From positions 1-64,000 of the forward strand of contig NZ_AUJX01000005.1 of assembly GCF_000424445.1 (NCBI RefSeq): DNA of 64,000 nt, read 5' to 3'. This DNA is from Oribacterium sp. NK2B42 (GTDB lineage Bacteria > Bacillota > Clostridia > Lachnospirales > Lachnospiraceae). Both the position numbers and the translations under genes were made by a program. Every line of letters begins with the position of its first letter. Position 1 is the stretch's first letter. Shown here one piece after another: positions 8,603 to 23,462 of this stretch. The notes beneath the pieces are model-generated. The model was given only the letters and a program-made list of their open reading frames with translations. It was not told the DNA's origin and searched no databases.

Positions 8603-8623
8603 TAAATGGGTCGAGAAAAATAT

Positions 8624-9214
8624 ATGAAAGAAAAAACGAAGATTGCGGTGTTGGTCAGTGGGGGCGGAACGAATCTGCAGGCGCTGATCGATGCGGAGAA
8701 GAGGGGCGAGATTCCTGATGGGGAAATCACTTTGGTGGTTGGATCGAAACCCGGAATATATGCTCTTGAGAGAGCGGATAATGCAGGGATAAAGCACGAA
8801 GTTGTTCAGAAGGATGAGGAGAGGCTCATAAAGGTTCTTGATGAGAACGGGATTGAGCTTATCATCCTTGCGGGATATCTCACAATTCTTAGTGAGGCTT
8901 TTACAAAGAAATATGCGGACAGGATCATTAACATCCACCCTTCACTGATTCCGAGTTTCTGCGGAAAGGGTATGTACGGACTTAAGCCTCATGAGGCGGC
9001 TCTCGCCAGAGGAGTTAAGGTTACCGGTGCCACGGTTCATCTTGTAAACGAGATTCCGGATGGCGGACGCATCCTGCTTCAAAAGGCTGTAGACATTGAG
9101 CCCGGTGATACTCCCGAGGTGCTTCAGAAGAGAGTCATGGAACAGGCTGAATGGAAGCTGCTTCCGAAGGCTGCTGAGATGATGAGCCGTGAAATCCGGG
9201 AAGCGAAGGCATAA
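8624..9214 (+). CDS. purN: Phosphoribosylglycinamide formyltransferase PurN
   Basis: Folate-dependent formylation of GAR to FGAR. About 196 aa from the ATG at 8624; an in-frame ATG at 8606 adds six residues and neither has a strong ribosome site. Signatures are the VLVSGGGTNLQAL N-terminus, the INIHPSLIPSF segment with catalytic Asn and His, and HLVNEIPDGGRILLQ with the catalytic Asp. It starts about 20 nt after purH stops, so the two are almost certainly co-transcribed. Confidence 0.95.
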   Translation: MKEKTKIAVLVSGGGTNLQALIDAEKRGEIPDGEITLVVGSKPGIYALERADNAGIKHEVVQKDEERLIKVLDENGIELIILAGYLTILSEAFTKKYADRIINIHPSLIPSFCGKGMYGLKPHEAALARGVKVTGATVHLVNEIPDGGRILLQKAVDIEPGDTPEVLQKRVMEQAEWKLLPKAAEMMSREIREAKA

Positions 9215-9337: not shown

Positions 9338-10603
9338 ATGAAGATTGGTGTTGTAGGTGGCGGAGGTCGTGAGCACGCCATCATTAAGACATTAAAGAAA
9401 AATGCTTCTATCGAGAAGATTTATGCGATTCCGGGTAACGGAGGTATCGCAAAGGACGCAGAGTGTGTTCCTGATATAAAGGCAACTGATGTGACTGCCG
9501 TTGTTGATTTCTGCAAGTCGGAGGCTCTTGACTATGTGGTTGTGGCTCCGGATGATCCACTTGTTGCCGGCACTGTTGATGCTCTCAAGGAAGCAGGCAT
9601 CCCTGCTTTCGGACCTGAGGCCAAGGCTGCCATCATAGAGGGTTCAAAGGTATTCTCCAAGAACCTTATGAAAAAATACAACATTCCTACTGCCGCTTAC
9701 GAGGTTTTCAATGACATCGAAAAGGCAGAGGAGTATGTTAAAACCTGTCCTATACCTACAGTCATCAAGGCTGACGGTCTCGCTCTCGGAAAGGGCGTCA
9801 TCATCGCCATGACCCGGGAAGAGGCACTTGACGGCATAAAAACCATCATGGAGGAAAAGAAGTTCGGAGCTTCCGGCGACCAGATAGTGATCGAGGAGTT
9901 CCTTGAGGGTCCTGAGGTTTCCGTTCTCAGCTTCACAGACGGAAACGTTGTGGTTCCCATGATCTCATCCATGGATCACAAGCGTATAAATGACAACGAC
10001 GAGGGTCTCAACACCGGAGGCATGGGCACCATCGCACCGAATCCTTACTACACAGACAGCGTAGCAGCAGAGTGCATGGAGAAAATATTCAAGCCTACCA
10101 TCGAGGCCATGAACAAAGAAGGCAGAACCTTCAAAGGCTGTCTCTACTTCGGTCTCATGATCACAAAGGATGGCCCGAAGGTTATCGAATACAACTGCCG
10201 TTTCGGCGATCCCGAGACTCAGGTTGTACTTCCCCTTCTGGACTCTGACCTTCTCACCATCATGCAGGCCACAACCAACGGCACACTTGCCGAAACTGAA
10301 GTCAAGTGGAAGTCCGGCGCTGCCTGCTGCATCGTAGAAGCCTCCGGCGGATATCCCCTTTCCTACAAGTCCGGCTACGAAATCACCGGCATTGATGAAG
10401 TGGATAATGTCTTCGTCGCAGGTGCTGACCTGAAGGACGGCAAACTCTACACCCACGGCGGCCGCGTCCTAGGCGTAGTGGAAATCGCCCCCACCCTCAA
10501 AGAAGCCATCGACAAGGCCTACGATAGTGCAGCGAAGGTCACCTTCAAAGATATGCACATGAGAAAAGACATCGGTCAAAGGGCACTGAAGGCTCTTCAC
10601 TAA
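9338..10603 (+). CDS. purD: Phosphoribosylamine-glycine ligase PurD
   Basis: ATP-grasp enzyme joining glycine to phosphoribosylamine to give GAR. 421 aa. The N-terminus VGGGGREHAI is typical, the ATP-grasp core shows KADGLALGKGV and EEFLEGPEVS, and the metal-binding NCRFGDPETQ lies near residue 288. GGAGGTAAG precedes the start. It follows purN after 123 nt with no visible terminator. Confidence 0.97.
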   Translation: MKIGVVGGGGREHAIIKTLKKNASIEKIYAIPGNGGIAKDAECVPDIKATDVTAVVDFCKSEALDYVVVAPDDPLVAGTVDALKEAGIPAFGPEAKAAIIEGSKVFSKNLMKKYNIPTAAYEVFNDIEKAEEYVKTCPIPTVIKADGLALGKGVIIAMTREEALDGIKTIMEEKKFGASGDQIVIEEFLEGPEVSVLSFTDGNVVVPMISSMDHKRINDNDEGLNTGGMGTIAPNPYYTDSVAAECMEKIFKPTIEAMNKEGRTFKGCLYFGLMITKDGPKVIEYNCRFGDPETQVVLPLLDSDLLTIMQATTNGTLAETEVKWKSGAACCIVEASGGYPLSYKSGYEITGIDEVDNVFVAGADLKDGKLYTHGGRVLGVVEIAPTLKEAIDKAYDSAAKVTFKDMHMRKDIGQRALKALH

Positions 10604-10723
10604 CATCAGTACATCAAATAATAAATATCTACACATTCTATAACTGCATCATCGTAGAAATACCAAGTTAGCATGATAGCTATGATGTATCAGATATTTA
10701 ATTTTACCGCCCGACACAGTGTA

Positions 10724-10912
10724 GGAAAATGTTCGGGATGGGTGACTAGGCTTGCGAGATTCATCAGCGTTTCGTAAGAAATGCTGATGCCCCCAGGCGG
10801 CGAGGCTGTTTCGGCGTAAGCCGAAATCAAACGAAAATGCCTGCGCGTAGCGCATTTCAATGGCATTTTCTCCTCGTATCTCGTGGGCCGGCGCACATCC
10901 CGAACATTTTCC
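10724..10912. repeat. Large nested-palindrome element, copy 1 (purD-purL gap)
   Basis: A 17-bp perfect outer inverted repeat (10724-10740 and 10896-10912) encloses a conserved pair, GGCTTGCGAG and CTCGTGGGCC, that can pair fully only if G-U is allowed. Several inner hairpins follow: CATCAGC/GCTGATG, TTTCGGC/GCCGAAA, TGCGC/GCGCA and GAAAATGCC/GGCATTTTC. Copy 2 is at 21044-21198. The G-U pairs suggest an RNA structure. It fills the purD-purL gap, and the purL ribosome site follows it. Confidence 0.6.
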
Positions 10913-10944: not shown

Positions 10945-13900
10945 ATGGTAAATCGAGTTTATGTTGAGAAAAAGGAAGGCCTCCGTCACGAGGCCCAGGG
11001 ACTTCGCCATGACATCCGCCACATACTACTCATTAAGAATCTCACAGACGTACGTCTTCTGAATCGTTACGATGTTGAGGGACTGGATAAAGAAACATTT
11101 GAAAAGGCTACAAGTCTGGTTCTCAGTGAGCCTCAGCTTGATAATGTTTACGCAGAGCTTCCCGAGCATAAGAATGCCTATGTGTTTGCTGTAGAGTTCC
11201 TTCCGGGACAGTTTGACCAGAGAGCCGACTCAGCTGCCCAGTGCATACAGATCCTTACAACCGGAGACCGTCCAAAGGTTCGTTCCGCCAAGGTTTACCT
11301 TCTCTACGGAAACCTCACAGATCAGGAGATCGCCGACATTAAGAAGTATGTCATCAACCCTGTGGAGGCAAGAGAGGCTTCCCTCGAAACCTTCGACACC
11401 CTGGATGTCAAGTATGATATCCCTGAGTCTGTTGATACACTTAACGGCTTTATCACAGCTTCTGAGGATAAGCTCAAGGATATCCTGAAGGATATGGGAC
11501 TGGCAATGGACCTGGATGACCTTAAGTTCTGCCAGAATTATTTCAAAACAGAGGATCGTGATCCTTCCATCACTGAGATCCGCATGATCGATACCTACTG
11601 GTCAGATCATTGCCGTCATACAACCTTCCTTACAACCATAGATGATGTTTCCTTTGAAGATGAGCAGCTCAAGGCTTCCTGGGAGCGTTACATTAATTCC
11701 CGCAAGGAGCTTAACCGCACAAAACCCATCAACCTTATGGATATCGGAACTCTTGCTGCCAAGGTTCTCAAGAAGGAAGGAAAGCTTCCGAAGCTTGATG
11801 AGTCTGAGGAGATCAATGCCTGCACCGTTAAGATAAAGGTTACGGTGGACGGCGAAGCCCAGGACTGGCTCCTTCTTTTCAAGAACGAGACCCACAACCA
11901 TCCTACCGAGATCGAGCCCTTCGGTGGCGCTGCAACCTGTATCGGCGGTGCTATCCGCGATCCTCTTTCAGGAAGATCCTATGTATATCAGGCAATGCGC
12001 GTGACCGGTGCTGCCGATCCTACAGTTTCCGTTAAGGACACCATGACAGGAAAGCTTCCTCAGAGAAAGCTTGTTACCACAGCTGCTGACGGTTACTCAA
12101 GCTACGGCAACCAGATCGGTCTCGCAACAGGTCTTGTAGACGAGCTCTATCATCCGGGCTATGCCGCAAAGCGCATGGAGATAGGTGCAGTCGTTGCTGC
12201 CGCTCCCGCAGAGAATGTCCGCCGCGAAGTGCCTGCTGCCGGGGACGTAGTCATTCTCCTTGGCGGTCGTACAGGCCGTGACGGTATCGGCGGTGCAACC
12301 GGTTCCTCCAAGTCACATAATGTTGAGTCTCTTGAGAAGGATGGCGCAGAGGTTCAGAAGGGTAATGCTCCCGAAGAGCGTAAGCTTCAGCGTCTTTTCC
12401 GTAATGCAGAGGCATCAAGACTTATCAAGCGCTGCAACGATTTCGGTGCCGGCGGAGTTTCCGTTGCCATCGGTGAGCTTGCAGACGGCCTGGACATTGA
12501 CCTTAACAAGGTTCCCAAGAAATATGAAGGTCTCGACGGAACAGAGCTTGCCATCTCAGAGTCACAGGAGAGAATGGCTGTAGTTGTTGAAGCCGGGGAT
12601 ATGGATCGTTTCATGGAGCTTGCCCATGAGGAAAACCTTGAGGCTACACATGTTGCCACGGTAACAGATACAAACAGACTTATCGCACATTGGAACGGCA
12701 AAGACATTATCAATCTGTCACGTGACTTCCTTAACTCAAACGGTGCAGAGAAGCACATTACAGTCAAGGCTGCTGCCGGCGAAAGCATTTACCGGGAGGT
12801 TAAGGGCAGCTTCAGTGAGAACATGACAGCTCTTTCAGAGGATCTCAATGTCTGCTCAAAGAGAGGTCTCAGCGAGCGTTTCGACTCTACCATCGGTGCA
12901 GGAACAGTACTGATGCCCTTCGGCGGAAAGCATCAGCGTACACCTATACAGGCAATGGCCGCAAAGATATCCGTTGAGAAGGGTCACACAGATGACACCT
13001 CGGTTATGGCTTACGGCTACAATCCTTTCATCACTGAGAAGAACTGCTATAAGGGTGCATATCTTGCAGTAGTTGAGTCTGCCGCAAAGCTTATCGCAGC
13101 AGGTGCCGGCTTCGAGGACACTTACCTTACTTTCCAGGAGTACTTCGGAAAGCCGGGTCATGACAGCACACGTTGGGGACAGCCTCTTGAGGCACTTCTC
13201 GGTGCCTTTGATGCACAGCTCGACCTCGGAATCGCTGCCATCGGCGGTAAGGATTCCATGTCCGGAACCTTTGAGAAGCTGGATGTTCCTCCAACACTTG
13301 TTTCCTTCGCCATCACAACAGAGGATGCGAAGTACATCACAAGTCCTGAATTCAAGGGTGCGACCCACAAGGTACTATGGCTGAAGCCTGAGTACAGAAA
13401 TGAGCTTCCCACAAAGGAAAGTCTCCTTACACTTTTCGACTATGTTCATAAGCTCGTGACAGACGGAAAGCTTGCTTCCATTTACACACCGACTTACGGA
13501 GGCGCAGCTGAAGCAGTTCTCAAGCAGTGCATGGGTAATGATTTCGGCTTCGCATTTGCCGGAAGCCTTTCAGTTCAGGATATCTTCGGATATCAGTACG
13601 GAAGCTTCATCCTCGAGCTTAATGAGAAGTCTACTCTTGATGAGATTTATGCAGCATCTGAGCTTAAGGATAAGGGAATCATAGTTGCTGACCTCGGTGA
13701 GACAACAGAAGATTCGGAGATCCGTTACAATAACGAGGTTCTGAAGCTTTCAGACCTTTGTGAGGCTTACGAGGATAAGCTTGAGAAGGTATTTAAGTGC
13801 AACATGAATCTTGATAAGGATGCAGAGCCGGAAGAGGCTGATGTTACAATAGCTGATTACACAGAGGAGAACTGGGTTGCACCTGCTGTATCGGTTGCAA

Positions 13901-19774: not shown

Positions 19775-20956
19775 ATGAAAAAAAGCTCTATCAAATTAAC
19801 CCGTAAAAAGATAACAGCCGTTGCTGCTGCATTTGTCTTATCAGCCATGACGCTGGTGGCCTGCGGACACAGTTCTTCCGCAAGCAGTGACAGTATAAAA
19901 AGTTCCGGCTCTAACTATATGGCAGAAGCCGGCATGCCAATGGAAGAGGCTGATGCAGGATCAAGTATGTTCGCAGCCAGATCTGCATCAAAAAACAGCG
20001 CCGATATGGATATGTATACAGATATGGAAGCACCGGAAATGGTTGCCGAAACCGCTGCATCCGGAGAATCTGCCAATTCTGATGTAGCTACAGAGAAAAT
20101 CCCTGATGATCGTAAACTCATAAGAAATGTAAACCTCTCTTTTGAAACTACAGATTTTGACACCTTTGTAAGAGACATCCAGAACAGAACCACTGAGCTT
20201 GGAGGTTACATAGAATCCAGTGACATTAACGGAAACGAAAAAACAAGTTCAAGCCGTTATGCATACTTCACTCTGCGTATTCCCAAACCTCAGGTAGATG
20301 CCTTTCTTGATTTTGCCGAAGGAAGCGCCAACCTCACAAGAAAATACGAGAATACTCAGGATATAACATTAAAATATCATGACACCGAATCCAGAAAGAA
20401 AGCCCTGAAGGAAGAGTATGACCGACTTCTGGAGCTCATGGCCCAGGCTGAATCAGTGGATGCCATCATTACCATCGAAGCACGCTTATCAGATATCAGA
20501 TATGAGCTTGATAACTATGAGTCTGACCTTCGCTCCTATGACAATCAGGTGGATTATTCAACCGTAACCGTAGATGTTACCGAAAAATCTGTTTACACAC
20601 CTACACCGAAGACCACCTTCTGGGGACGTGTATCAGCAAATCTCGAGTCCAATATAGAAGAGCTTGCCGAAGCAGTTACAGATTTCCTTGTATGGTTCAT
20701 ATCAAGCCTTCCTATATTCCTGTTCCTTGCCTTTGTAGCCGGAATCGTTTTGTTTATCGTGATCAGCATCGTGAAACTCCACAGCAAAAAAGCCGCAAAG
20801 AAAGCCGCAAAGATGGCCGGAATCCAAACTGCTGGAGCTCCAACCGCTGACACAAACACCAAACCTGCAGCTGCTGCAACCACCGATACCAAAGTTGACG
20901 CGACAGCCCCAAAAGAACCGGAAACCAAAAAAACTACTGATGAAGCAAAAAAATAA
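19775..20956 (+). CDS. DUF4349 lipoprotein with a C-terminal membrane helix
   Basis: 393 aa. A lipoprotein signal peptide ends at Cys30 (TLVACG). A poorly conserved linker leads to a DUF4349 domain (about residues 112-285) with a coiled-coil segment around 190-250. A transmembrane helix (about 305-335, FLVWFISSLPIFLFLAFVAGI) is followed by a Lys/Ala/Thr-rich tail. GGAAGGAGAGG precedes the start. It follows the sigma/anti-sigma pair by 143 nt and may be a target of that sigma factor. Function unknown. Confidence 0.82.
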   Translation: MKKSSIKLTRKKITAVAAAFVLSAMTLVACGHSSSASSDSIKSSGSNYMAEAGMPMEEADAGSSMFAARSASKNSADMDMYTDMEAPEMVAETAASGESANSDVATEKIPDDRKLIRNVNLSFETTDFDTFVRDIQNRTTELGGYIESSDINGNEKTSSSRYAYFTLRIPKPQVDAFLDFAEGSANLTRKYENTQDITLKYHDTESRKKALKEEYDRLLELMAQAESVDAIITIEARLSDIRYELDNYESDLRSYDNQVDYSTVTVDVTEKSVYTPTPKTTFWGRVSANLESNIEELAEAVTDFLVWFISSLPIFLFLAFVAGIVLFIVISIVKLHSKKAAKKAAKMAGIQTAGAPTADTNTKPAAAATTDTKVDATAPKEPETKKTTDEAKK

Positions 20957-21043: not shown

Positions 21044-21198
21044 AGAAAATGCAAGGGATGTGTGACTAGGCTTGCGAGTTGAAAGAACATCCCGCTTTAC
21101 ATGTACGTCGCAGATGCACGTCAGTGCAGCTGAGGCGAACATGTAAAGCGGGATGTTCTTTCAATCTCGTGGGCCGCCACGCATCCCTTGCATTTTCT
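21044..21198. repeat. Large nested-palindrome element, copy 2 (upstream of glmS)
   Basis: The 17-bp outer inverted repeat (21044-21060 and 21182-21198) is AGAAAATGCAAGGGATG and its exact complement. The conserved core TGACTAGGCTTGCGAG ... ATCTCGTGGGCC is shared with copy 1. A 24-bp perfect inner stem starts GAAAGAACATCCCGC. Between the copies the outer stem changed on both sides compensatorily (TTC/GAA versus CAA/TTG). It lies just upstream of the glmS promoter. Confidence 0.6.
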
Positions 21199-21224
21199 GT
21201 ACCATTTCACAATGTTTCCAACAG

Positions 21225-21284: not shown

Positions 21285-21430
21285 GCGTCTCAGGTTAGCG
21301 CCAGGACCGTAATTGGTCGACGAGGATGACAGTTATCGAAAGACTCGGCGGATGCTGTCACGGATTTGTGAATCGAAAGAGAAAAAAGAAAAAGCGGAAT
21401 CAAAACCGTAACAGAGATTTTCTCACTCAC
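21285..21430 (+). ncRNA. glmS ribozyme-riboswitch (GlcN6P-activated self-cleaving)
   Basis: Conserved core segments of the glmS ribozyme are readable: AGCGCC at the cleavage site, GACGAGGATGAC, then GTTATCGAAAGACTCGGCGG and GATGCTGTCAC. The P1-P2 and pseudoknot strands are in the expected order. Cleavage is predicted between A21297 and G21298. With glucosamine-6-phosphate bound, the RNA cleaves and the glmS mRNA is destabilised, giving feedback control. The 3' limit (P3-P4 region) is approximate; the glmS start codon lies about 325 nt downstream of the cleavage site. Confidence 0.93.
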
Positions 21431-21623
21431 TGATGAACTGATGAAAGAGTTGTATAACAGACTTGTGCCATTGCCGCAGTAATCATTTTTACTTCAGAAA
21501 AGGCAGGTTAAGTCTTGTTTCGTGATGATGTCATGGCAAAAACATTGGCCTGAACATCACCACCGGTTTTTGTATGAATGAAACTCTTCATCCCGTAGGT
21601 TTTATCAGAGAGGAGATTTTTTT

Positions 21624-23462
21624 ATGTGTGGAATAGTTGGTTTTGTAGGAAATAAGCAGGCAGCGCCTATACTTTTGGACGGACTCAGCAAGCTTGAGTA
21701 CAGAGGTTATGATTCAGCGGGAATCGCCGTAAGAAACGAAAAAAACGAAATAAAAGTAGTAAAGGCCAAAGGCCGTCTCAAAAACCTTTCAGAAAAGACA
21801 GATGACGGAAAAGCTCTGAAGGGTGAGTGCGGAATCGGTCATACAAGATGGGCAACCCACGGTGAGCCGAGTGAGACCAATGCACATCCTCACGTAAGCT
21901 TCCATAAGCAGGTAGTTGCCGTTCACAACGGTATCATCGAAAACTTCCAGGAGATAAAGGATAAGCTTCTGAAAAAAGGCTATGAGTTCCACTCTGAGAC
22001 CGATACAGAGGTAGCCGTAAATCTGGTTGATTACTATTATCAGAAGTACGGTCAGGGCCCTATCGATGCCATATCCCGCGCCATGGTTCGTATCCGCGGA
22101 TCATACGCCCTCGAGTTTATGTTTACAGACTATCCCGGAGAGGTCTATGTTGCCCGTAAGGATGCCCCTATGATCATCGGTATCCAGGATGGATCAACCT
22201 ATATCGCATCTGATGTTCCTGCCATCCTCAAGTACTGCAGAAATGTTTATTACATTGACAATCAGGAAATCGCAAAGCTTACAGCCGGAACCGCAGAGTT
22301 CTTCAGTCTCGATCAGGAGCCTGTAACAAAGGAACTGGTTGAGATCAAGATGGATGCTCAGGCAGCAGAGAAGGGCGGCTTTGAGCACTTCATGATGAAG
22401 GAAATACATGAACAGCCGAAGTCGGTTCGTGACACCATCAACTCTGTTGTAAAAGACGGCAGGATCGATCTCAGCGGCGTTGGTCTCAGTGAAGCTGAGA
22501 TTAAAAACATTTCCCAGATTTACATCGTTGCCTGCGGCTCAGCATATCATGTCGGAGTAGTATGCCAGTACGTTCTGGAAGGACTTGCACGTATACCTGT
22601 CCGCGTAGAGCTTGCTTCCGAGTTCCGTTACCGTAATCCTATCCTTGATCCTAACGGTCTCGTTATCATCATCAGCCAGTCGGGAGAAACTGCTGACTCA
22701 CTTGCGGCTCTCCGTGAAGCAAAGGAGAGAGGCGTTAAGACTCTGGGAATCGTTAATGTTATCGGTTCTTCCATTGCCCGTGAAGCCGACAATGTGTTCT
22801 ATACCTTAGCAGGTCCTGAAATCGCGGTTGCCACCACAAAGGCATATTCAACACAGCTCATTGCAGGTTACACTCTTGCGGTTGAATTTGCAAAGGTACG
22901 TGGGGAGATCGACGCAGAACGTTATTCAGCACTTATCTCCGAGATGGAAGCATTACCGCAGAAGATAGAAGATATCCTCAAGGACAAAGAACGTATCCAG
23001 TGGTTTGCAGCCAAGCAGGCCAATGCTCAGGACGTTTTCTTCATCGGAAGAGGAATCGACTATGCCATCGGCCTCGAGGGTTCACTTAAGCTTAAGGAAA
23101 TAAGCTATATCCACTCAGAAGCCTATGCTGCGGGAGAACTTAAGCACGGAACCATTTCTCTTATTGAAAAAGGCATCCTGGTTGTAGGTATACTGTCACA
23201 GCCTGAGCTTTTTGAAAAAACTGTTTCCAATATGGTTGAAGTCAAGGCCAGAGGAGGATATCTCATGGGACTTACCACCTACGGAAACTACAATATAGAA
23301 GATACAGCCGACTTCACGGTTTATGTTCCCACCACAGATCCTTACTTTGCAACCTCCCTTGCTGTAATTCCGTTACAGCTCCTTGCATACTATGTAAGTG
23401 TTGCCAAGGGTCTCGATGTTGATAAACCAAGAAATCTTGCAAAATCAGTTACTGTAGAATAA
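21624..23462 (+). CDS. glmS: Glutamine-fructose-6-phosphate aminotransferase GlmS
   Basis: Makes glucosamine-6-phosphate from fructose-6-phosphate and glutamine, the entry to amino-sugar and peptidoglycan synthesis. 612 aa. Cys2 of MCGIVGFVG is the glutaminase nucleophile after removal of Met1. The N-terminal class II glutaminase shows GHTRWATHG. Two SIS domains follow, with VACGSAYHVG, SQSGETADSL and the C-terminal LAKSVTVE tail. GAGAGGAG precedes the ATG. It is controlled by the ribozyme in its own leader. Confidence 0.98.
   Translation: MCGIVGFVGNKQAAPILLDGLSKLEYRGYDSAGIAVRNEKNEIKVVKAKGRLKNLSEKTDDGKALKGECGIGHTRWATHGEPSETNAHPHVSFHKQVVAVHNGIIENFQEIKDKLLKKGYEFHSETDTEVAVNLVDYYYQKYGQGPIDAISRAMVRIRGSYALEFMFTDYPGEVYVARKDAPMIIGIQDGSTYIASDVPAILKYCRNVYYIDNQEIAKLTAGTAEFFSLDQEPVTKELVEIKMDAQAAEKGGFEHFMMKEIHEQPKSVRDTINSVVKDGRIDLSGVGLSEAEIKNISQIYIVACGSAYHVGVVCQYVLEGLARIPVRVELASEFRYRNPILDPNGLVIIISQSGETADSLAALREAKERGVKTLGIVNVIGSSIAREADNVFYTLAGPEIAVATTKAYSTQLIAGYTLAVEFAKVRGEIDAERYSALISEMEALPQKIEDILKDKERIQWFAAKQANAQDVFFIGRGIDYAIGLEGSLKLKEISYIHSEAYAAGELKHGTISLIEKGILVVGILSQPELFEKTVSNMVEVKARGGYLMGLTTYGNYNIEDTADFTVYVPTTDPYFATSLAVIPLQLLAYYVSVAKGLDVDKPRNLAKSVTVE

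Follow-up and report, generated by a model that had tools for sequence, protein, structure and literature searches.

An interspersed hairpin element family in Oribacterium whose fold is conserved on one strand

Oribacterium genomes contain dozens of dispersed copies of a single-hairpin element of about 155 nt, here called family A, and its selected form is one folded strand. Two copies are members found in the window, which refers to the whole 64,000-nt stretch of Oribacterium sp. NK2B42 DNA analyzed here. With moderate confidence, we regard family A as a non-autonomous interspersed element of the MITE or BOX kind, whose selected strand would most probably be RNA folded into a rod and serving as a processing or stability barrier.

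A rod-forming RNA would be made when a copy is transcribed together with its neighboring gene. The outer stem, a two-base bulge, and a U·G/U·G/G·U core would form a fixed socket, which would normally hold an inner hairpin to complete a nearly continuous double-stranded rod. Alternative hairpins, either family B or another hairpin element, could stand in the inner-hairpin place. In transcripts, the rod would most likely be a barrier of the RNase III or exonuclease kind. The copies would have spread by enzyme-mediated mobilization, and a number of them would now be inherited in place.

Table 1 Parts of the two family A copies and of a relic in the window
Feature	Position	Strand	Basis
Copy 1 outer stem 5′ arm, 17 nt, GGAAAATGTTCGGGATG	10724–10740	+	sequence
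Copy 1 lower helix continuation and TA bulge ahead of core	10741–10748	+	sequence
Copy 1 wobble core 5′ strand GGCTTGCGAG	10749–10758	+	sequence
Copy 1 inner domain, family B repeat replacing canonical inner hairpin	10759–10879	+	B unit in other copies; divergent standalone versions L006–L008
Copy 1 wobble core 3′ strand CTCGTGGGCC	10880–10889	+	sequence
Copy 1 outer stem 3′ arm, 17 nt, CATCCCGAACATTTTCC	10896–10912	+	sequence
Copy 2 outer stem 5′ arm, 17 nt, AGAAAATGCAAGGGATG	21044–21060	+	sequence
Copy 2 wobble core 5′ strand GGCTTGCGAG	21069–21078	+	sequence
Copy 2 conserved TTGAAAGAACA, base of canonical inner hairpin	21079–21089	+	69-copy alignment
Copy 2 variable paired block, 5′ side, conserved TGT at end	21090–21104	+	sequence
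Copy 2 apical part, hairpin GATGCACGTCAGTGCA	21105–21138	+	69-copy alignment
Copy 2 variable paired block, 3′ side	21139–21153	+	sequence
Copy 2 conserved TGTTCTTTCAA, pairing with 21079–21089	21154–21164	+	69-copy alignment
Copy 2 wobble core 3′ strand CTCGTGGGCC	21166–21175	+	sequence
Copy 2 outer stem 3′ arm, 17 nt, CATCCCTTGCATTTTCT	21182–21198	+	sequence
Copy 2 right end CTGTACCATTTCA, common to many copies at unrelated sites	21197–21209	+	right-end comparison
Relic, right end of lost copy in purH-like gene/purN spacer, 17 nt	8604–8620	−	16/17 bases as L132/L135, by-eye comparison

Copy 1 lies between purD (9338–10603) and purL (starting at 10945). Copy 2 has a DUF4349 gene (19775–20956) on one side, and the glmS riboswitch/ribozyme (21286–21434) and glmS gene (21624–23462) on the other. 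The spacer between purD and copy 1 contains about 120 nt (10600–10720) with short inverted repeats, which are also present in strain KHPX15 and absent in JC7, and which are perhaps another small repeat.

When the NK2B42 genome (G000) was searched at the DNA level with copy 1, 25 places were found, with partial arms and family B matches counted in. With copy 2 as the DNA query, family A was present in 8 of 17 congeneric genomes, and we take the carrier strains to be of rumen origin. A pattern filter requiring both arms and the canonical inner hairpin was applied to 115 loci and retained 69 copies from 8 congeneric genomes, leaving out plugged, truncated, and strongly diverged copies. A covariance model (R1) was built from these 69 aligned copies. 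Among the matches listed, R1 found at least 22 distinct places in the NK2B42 genome and at least 30 in Oribacterium sp. KHPX15 (G012), the genome richest in R1 matches; in the respective totals of 57 and 69, a palindromic copy is counted once per strand. Another genome, G011, had 6 R1 matches (best E 1.5e-17) and 0 DNA matches to copy 2.

R1 was also run with stricter filters against 200 genomes of the taxonomic family Lachnospiraceae (199 genera), a search suggested by the earlier note. It returned the NK2B42 genome and G090 only, and a convincing match was found in NK2B42 alone, as the G090 match is a long hairpin without the conserved motifs and was rejected as a family A member. This G090 locus (L117), from another genus, is a GC-rich long hairpin of 26 bp or more that scores 73 bits with R1 without sharing the motifs. 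R1 matches on long hairpins need a motif check. One conserved motif gave 44 loci in GTDB contigs, namely 37 in Oribacterium, 5 in Lachnospiraceae JC7, 1 in an uncultured Lachnospiraceae bin, and 1 in a Bacteroidetes MAG, the last being dismissed as chance because the remainder of the element is absent there. Phages and plasmids had 0 matches to the copy 2 query, and viral contigs had 0 matches to the conserved motif.

That no described RNA has this signature, as first supposed, agrees with Rfam. At gathering score, the window matches only tRNAs and glmS, and family A matches no family. A lax scan of four copies gave 10 matches, all far below gathering (8 microRNA-precursor models, RAGATH-18, and SpR10). 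The titles and abstract starts of the open-licence papers that were listed contained no description of family A.

From the outside in, the canonical element consists of the outer stem, the bulge, the core AGGCTTGCGAG, TTGAAAGAACA, a variable block, TGTACG, the apical hairpin GATGCACGnnnGTGCA, and the return strand. The outer stem, with the consensus GAAAATGCAAGGGATG and a covarying continuation, has 11 consensus pairs with 97.5% of cells paired in the 69 copies, and constitutes the terminal inverted repeats. In many copies the stem is followed by the right end CTGTACCATTTCA. The two-base bulge inside the stem is TA in 42 copies, AA in 19, and other in 8, and the variable paired block of the inner hairpin is about 12 bp long.

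The rod is nearly perfect in many NK2B42 and KHPX15 copies. Copies of JC7, C9, WCC10, and others have small internal loops in the rod, including tandem GA/GA steps, which exchange with Watson-Crick steps. Among the 69 copies, the core step is GA/GA in 18 versus GA/TC in 39, and the inner step is GA/GA in 19 versus TC/GA in 21.

The earlier note had described a core shared by the two copies that pairs fully only with three G-U pairs, and 17-bp outer stems that differ in step. Both descriptions hold, and the coordinates given are exact. The core of each copy needs the three G-U pairs for full pairing, and both outer stems are perfect while differing at 4 of 17 positions on both arms. The proposed check with a covariance model extends this to the family. 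Both sides changed in 34 of 55 pairs, and in 521 cells versus 136.5 in shuffles, although these controls do not remove relatedness among the 69 copies. Standard pairs make up 95.4% of pair cells versus 34–48% when partners are slid by 1–3 columns. None of 500 shuffles reaches the observed value in any of five measures, the 34 pairs included. Pitfalls of covariation analysis are the topic of a separate article (PMC11234323).

The stronger argument is the asymmetry of mismatches, because a decaying DNA palindrome should give G·T and A·C equally. Over all pairs of the 69 copies, G·T occurs in 348 mismatch cells and A·C in 24. The difference persists without the three core pairs (154 versus 24), with four further positions of common G·U also dropped (64 versus 22), and in 13 representatives under 75% identity (33 versus 5). 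Per position, G·T leads in 23 and A·C in 7 (sign test, p = 0.005). Two wobble pairs, 33–143 and 34–142, are invariant (69/69), and the third, 32–144, is U-G in 56 copies, U-A in 8, and C-G in 5. With RNA parameters, the given strand is more stable than its complement in 69/69 (−110.6 versus −94.0). The excess of G·U over A·C and this stability thus indicate one folded strand under selection.

Selection on RNA structure had been read from the two copies. Compensatory change beyond the shuffled and slid controls and strand-specific G·U sustain the selection part of that reading, but the RNA part is not singled out by energies, as DNA parameters favor the same strand in 69/69 (−64.8 versus −56.0). 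While folding energies would fit both, RNA is probably to be preferred to single-stranded DNA. The RNA rod is supported by the kept fold, which also persists in same-site copies of several species, the G·T excess, the invariant wobbles, the GA/GA exchange, and a sense bias of 25 versus 11 copies.

The main rival to the RNA rod is mobility at the level of single-stranded DNA, which we rate as unlikely. The selected form would then be a folded DNA strand, a substrate for strand-selective recombination or transposition comparable to integron attC sites and REP/IS200 hairpins, and the bulge, the wobble core, and the variable top would be recognition features. The dispersal and nesting of copies look mobile, their orientation relative to genes is mixed, and the fold is strand-specific under DNA parameters too. 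The bulge and variable upper part of family A resemble features of attC sites, in which the upper part is variable. On the other hand, one would sooner expect wobble pairs without variation and GA/GA exchanges in an RNA. No recombinase was linked to family A. For Y1 transposase (PF01797), half of the carriers (4 of 8) gave no match, namely JC7 (G004), C9 (G006), UBA4274 (G007), and WCC10 (G013), one of which is only 73% complete, and it does match in genomes without DNA matches to family A (G001, G002, G011, G014, and G016, where G011 has weak model matches).

REP/BIME repeats, associated with RAYT transposases, are dispersed imperfect palindromes with structural irregularities marking one strand. 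Family A is longer, and Y1 transposase does not track it. As far as the consulted part of one account goes, integron attC sites are poorly conserved in sequence and are recognized through their structure, with one strand being selected (PMC2727003). Family A copies are dispersed singly, and the likeness to attC is by description only.

Genomic context bears on both the RNA rod and transcription termination. With orthologous sites included and with crude ORF-based gene calls, 51 copies were assigned to spacers flanked by ORFs of 100 aa or more. Co-directional genes flank 25 of them in sense and 11 in antisense orientation (p = 0.029), convergent genes flank 10, and divergent genes flank 5. ORFs covering the copy were set aside, and the count was restricted in this way because short ORFs overlapped 24 of 52 copies. 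The antisense share between co-directional genes, 11 of 36, does not sit easily with an mRNA role that is exclusively cis-acting.

Another explanation, which appears quite unlikely to us, would have the outer stem serve in essence to terminate transcription or protect 3′ ends, with the remainder as baggage. Copies of the 51 are indeed nearer to gene 3′ ends (median 50.5 nt) than to 5′ ends (126.5 nt). In the region preceding glmS, WCC10 and UBA4274 have an ordinary terminator-like hairpin with a T-run, and the element or its short form takes that place in other genomes: NK2B42 has copy 2 and only half of a terminator-like hairpin, and KHPX15 and RUI013 (G010) have a short hairpin equal to the outer stem alone. 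Neither the element nor a terminator-like hairpin was found there in JC7, P6A1 (G005), and C9. However, the invariant wobble core and the inner structure would be left unexplained, and the T-run consists of four T's; no terminator was detected at copy 2 by a scan restricted to loops of 3–8 nt and thus blind to longer ones. Strong termination is also argued against by copies that occupy two spacers of the pur gene cluster, the one separating purD from purL and, in antisense, the one separating a purH-like gene from purN, where it should be harmful provided that these genes are a single operon. Going by the glmS site, the outer stem could have an additional part in terminating or protecting transcripts.

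At these pur sites, the fold is kept across species while the sequence changes in step. Upstream of purL, a copy occupies the same place in five genomes with outer stems differing in step, and its inside is the canonical hairpin in RUI013 and P6A1 and family B in NK2B42, KHPX15, and WCC10. No copy was found at this site in JC7, C9, UBA4274, and G011. Incidentally, the purD–purL spacer of UBA4274 (L182, ~1210–1500) carries no family A; another insert, bounded by the inverted sequences GGGTCAAAAGT...ACTTTTGACACTC, is present there. In the spacer between the purH-like gene and purN, five species have an antisense full copy and RUI013 has none. Orthologous grouping is seen for the copies of JC7/C9 and for those of WCC10/UBA4274, but the KHPX15 copy is nearest to further copies within the KHPX15 genome. 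NK2B42 itself has the relic of Table 1, within which lies the listed ATG start (8606) of the purN ORF; the next in-frame ATG is at 8624.

Other shared sites differ in how they changed. L168 and L170 have two differences in the whole element versus flanks 82–89% identical. L017 and L100, with flanks 94.6% identical, differ by both-side changes in five consensus pairs, four of them in the variable block. The inner hairpin itself differs at the shared sites L012/L153, L035/L127, and L017/L152; L019/L043 was dropped as a further example because L043 is itself nested. Such swapping of the inner hairpin, rather than its conservation, counts against the RNA rod. Judging from these comparisons, copies seem to be inherited in place, to undergo exchange with one another, and to be rewritten rapidly in a matched fashion. 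The absences examined are deletion remnants or diverged spacers with no clean empty site, so that they reveal no target duplication and give no proof of recent movement.

The swapped hairpins and the L017/L100 changes, a kind of cluster that arm-to-arm correction makes, would suit a passive DNA palindrome with matched changes arising from template switching or gene conversion between arms or copies and no selection on a folded strand, but arm correction should erase wobbles, two of which are invariant, and is strand-blind against the G·T excess outside the core, so that this explanation is already disfavored by the strand asymmetry and is in our judgment quite unlikely.

The core had also been described as a fixed joint with variable arms, and the joint indeed accepts different inner domains. 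That the inner domains are unrelated is true of the two window copies; copy 1 is exceptional in containing family B, and the 69 aligned copies share a homologous inner hairpin. Just inside the core, four states were seen. First, the joint holds the canonical inner hairpin, as in the 69 aligned copies. Second, family B replaces the inner hairpin, as in copy 1 and others, or stands beside it (e.g., L003–L005). Third, a complete copy is enclosed by the arms of a second hairpin of its kind (L027, L043, L131, and L262); L050 is nested too by a shorter match, and the host of L131 has a diverged arm. Fourth, the inside is almost empty, leaving a short hairpin.

Family B is a second multi-hairpin repeat of about 121 nt, longer in L007 and L008. 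A scan for it yielded 17 rows; 12 of these were placed within a joint and 5 by themselves. It covered loci fetched for family A and so overstates the frequency of B in A. Of the 5, L277 appears to be plugged and one row of L136 overlaps with a plugged row, so that L006, L007, and L008 are left. When plugged into family A, family B is very similar in sequence across species. The three standalone units are divergent, and their first hairpins have different yet still paired stems.

Short forms by one strict pattern number 0–3 per genome, and three of them (L248, L249, and L250) have an identical GGG/GGG deletion junction, as expected of slippage across a palindrome. For these reasons, we did not accept as a general account that the outer stem is a terminator repeat in its own right whose loop received the rest of the element. 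A larger inverted repeat around the element was also considered. The longest complementary flank word averages 6.8 versus 5.5 with re-paired flanks, and words of at least 7 occur in 16 of 64 copies versus 8.2. The candidate was dropped since 5 of 6 flank words of at least 10 come from copies nested in another hairpin. Tentatively, and with considerable doubt, we conceive that the wobble-core joint could be recognized as a folded strand to exchange hairpins like a socket with plugs, and that the inner paired block could be rewritten on both sides to give each copy a self-complementary tag.

In size, dispersal, and modularity, family A resembles the known BOX and MITE kinds, as judged by analogy. 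Compared by description, BOX of Streptococcus pneumoniae is likewise a small intergenic interspersed repeat with a strongly folded predicted RNA and a modular inside; in the part consulted, the source states that about half of the insertions are common to all strains and that the mobilizer is uncertain, and reports no compensatory change or strand test (PMC3049150). By the same kind of comparison, family A differs in its invariant wobble core, variable paired block, and exchangeable plug. According to the consulted portion of a second source, the MITEs Correia, ERIC, and QMITE are shorter than 500 bp with inverted ends and a predicted stable stem-loop transcript, some being processed by RNase III (PMC10969869). 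Family A is like MITEs in being about 155 nt long, dispersed, and intergenic, with terminal inverted repeats and no gene of its own. Neither a related insertion sequence nor a target duplication was found for it, and the conservation of its fold concerns one strand.

The common view of interspersed repeats in bacteria is that they are DNA parasites and that they fold as a consequence of having inverted ends. In family A, a one-strand fold is conserved over dozens of paralogues and over shared sites between species, down to invariant wobbles. It is thus a test case for repeats as folded RNA or folded single-stranded DNA, and for the ways in which hairpin elements become nested and trade parts.

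Dispersal in both orientations, and nested, plugged, and reduced copies, fit a mobile element. RAYT was rejected as the mobilizer because Y1 transposase and family A do not correlate, though it may have mobilized copies in the past. A SINE-like reverse transcriptase was rejected because KHPX15 (98% complete) has no PF00078 match. A pattern for an autonomous IS with the same right end gave 58 places in 17 genomes, and the 30 read were copies, fragments, and chance matches with no transposon recognized. The NK2B42 genome has 30 Y1 transposase matches, many of them cut at contig ends, and IS200-like copies probably break its assembly.
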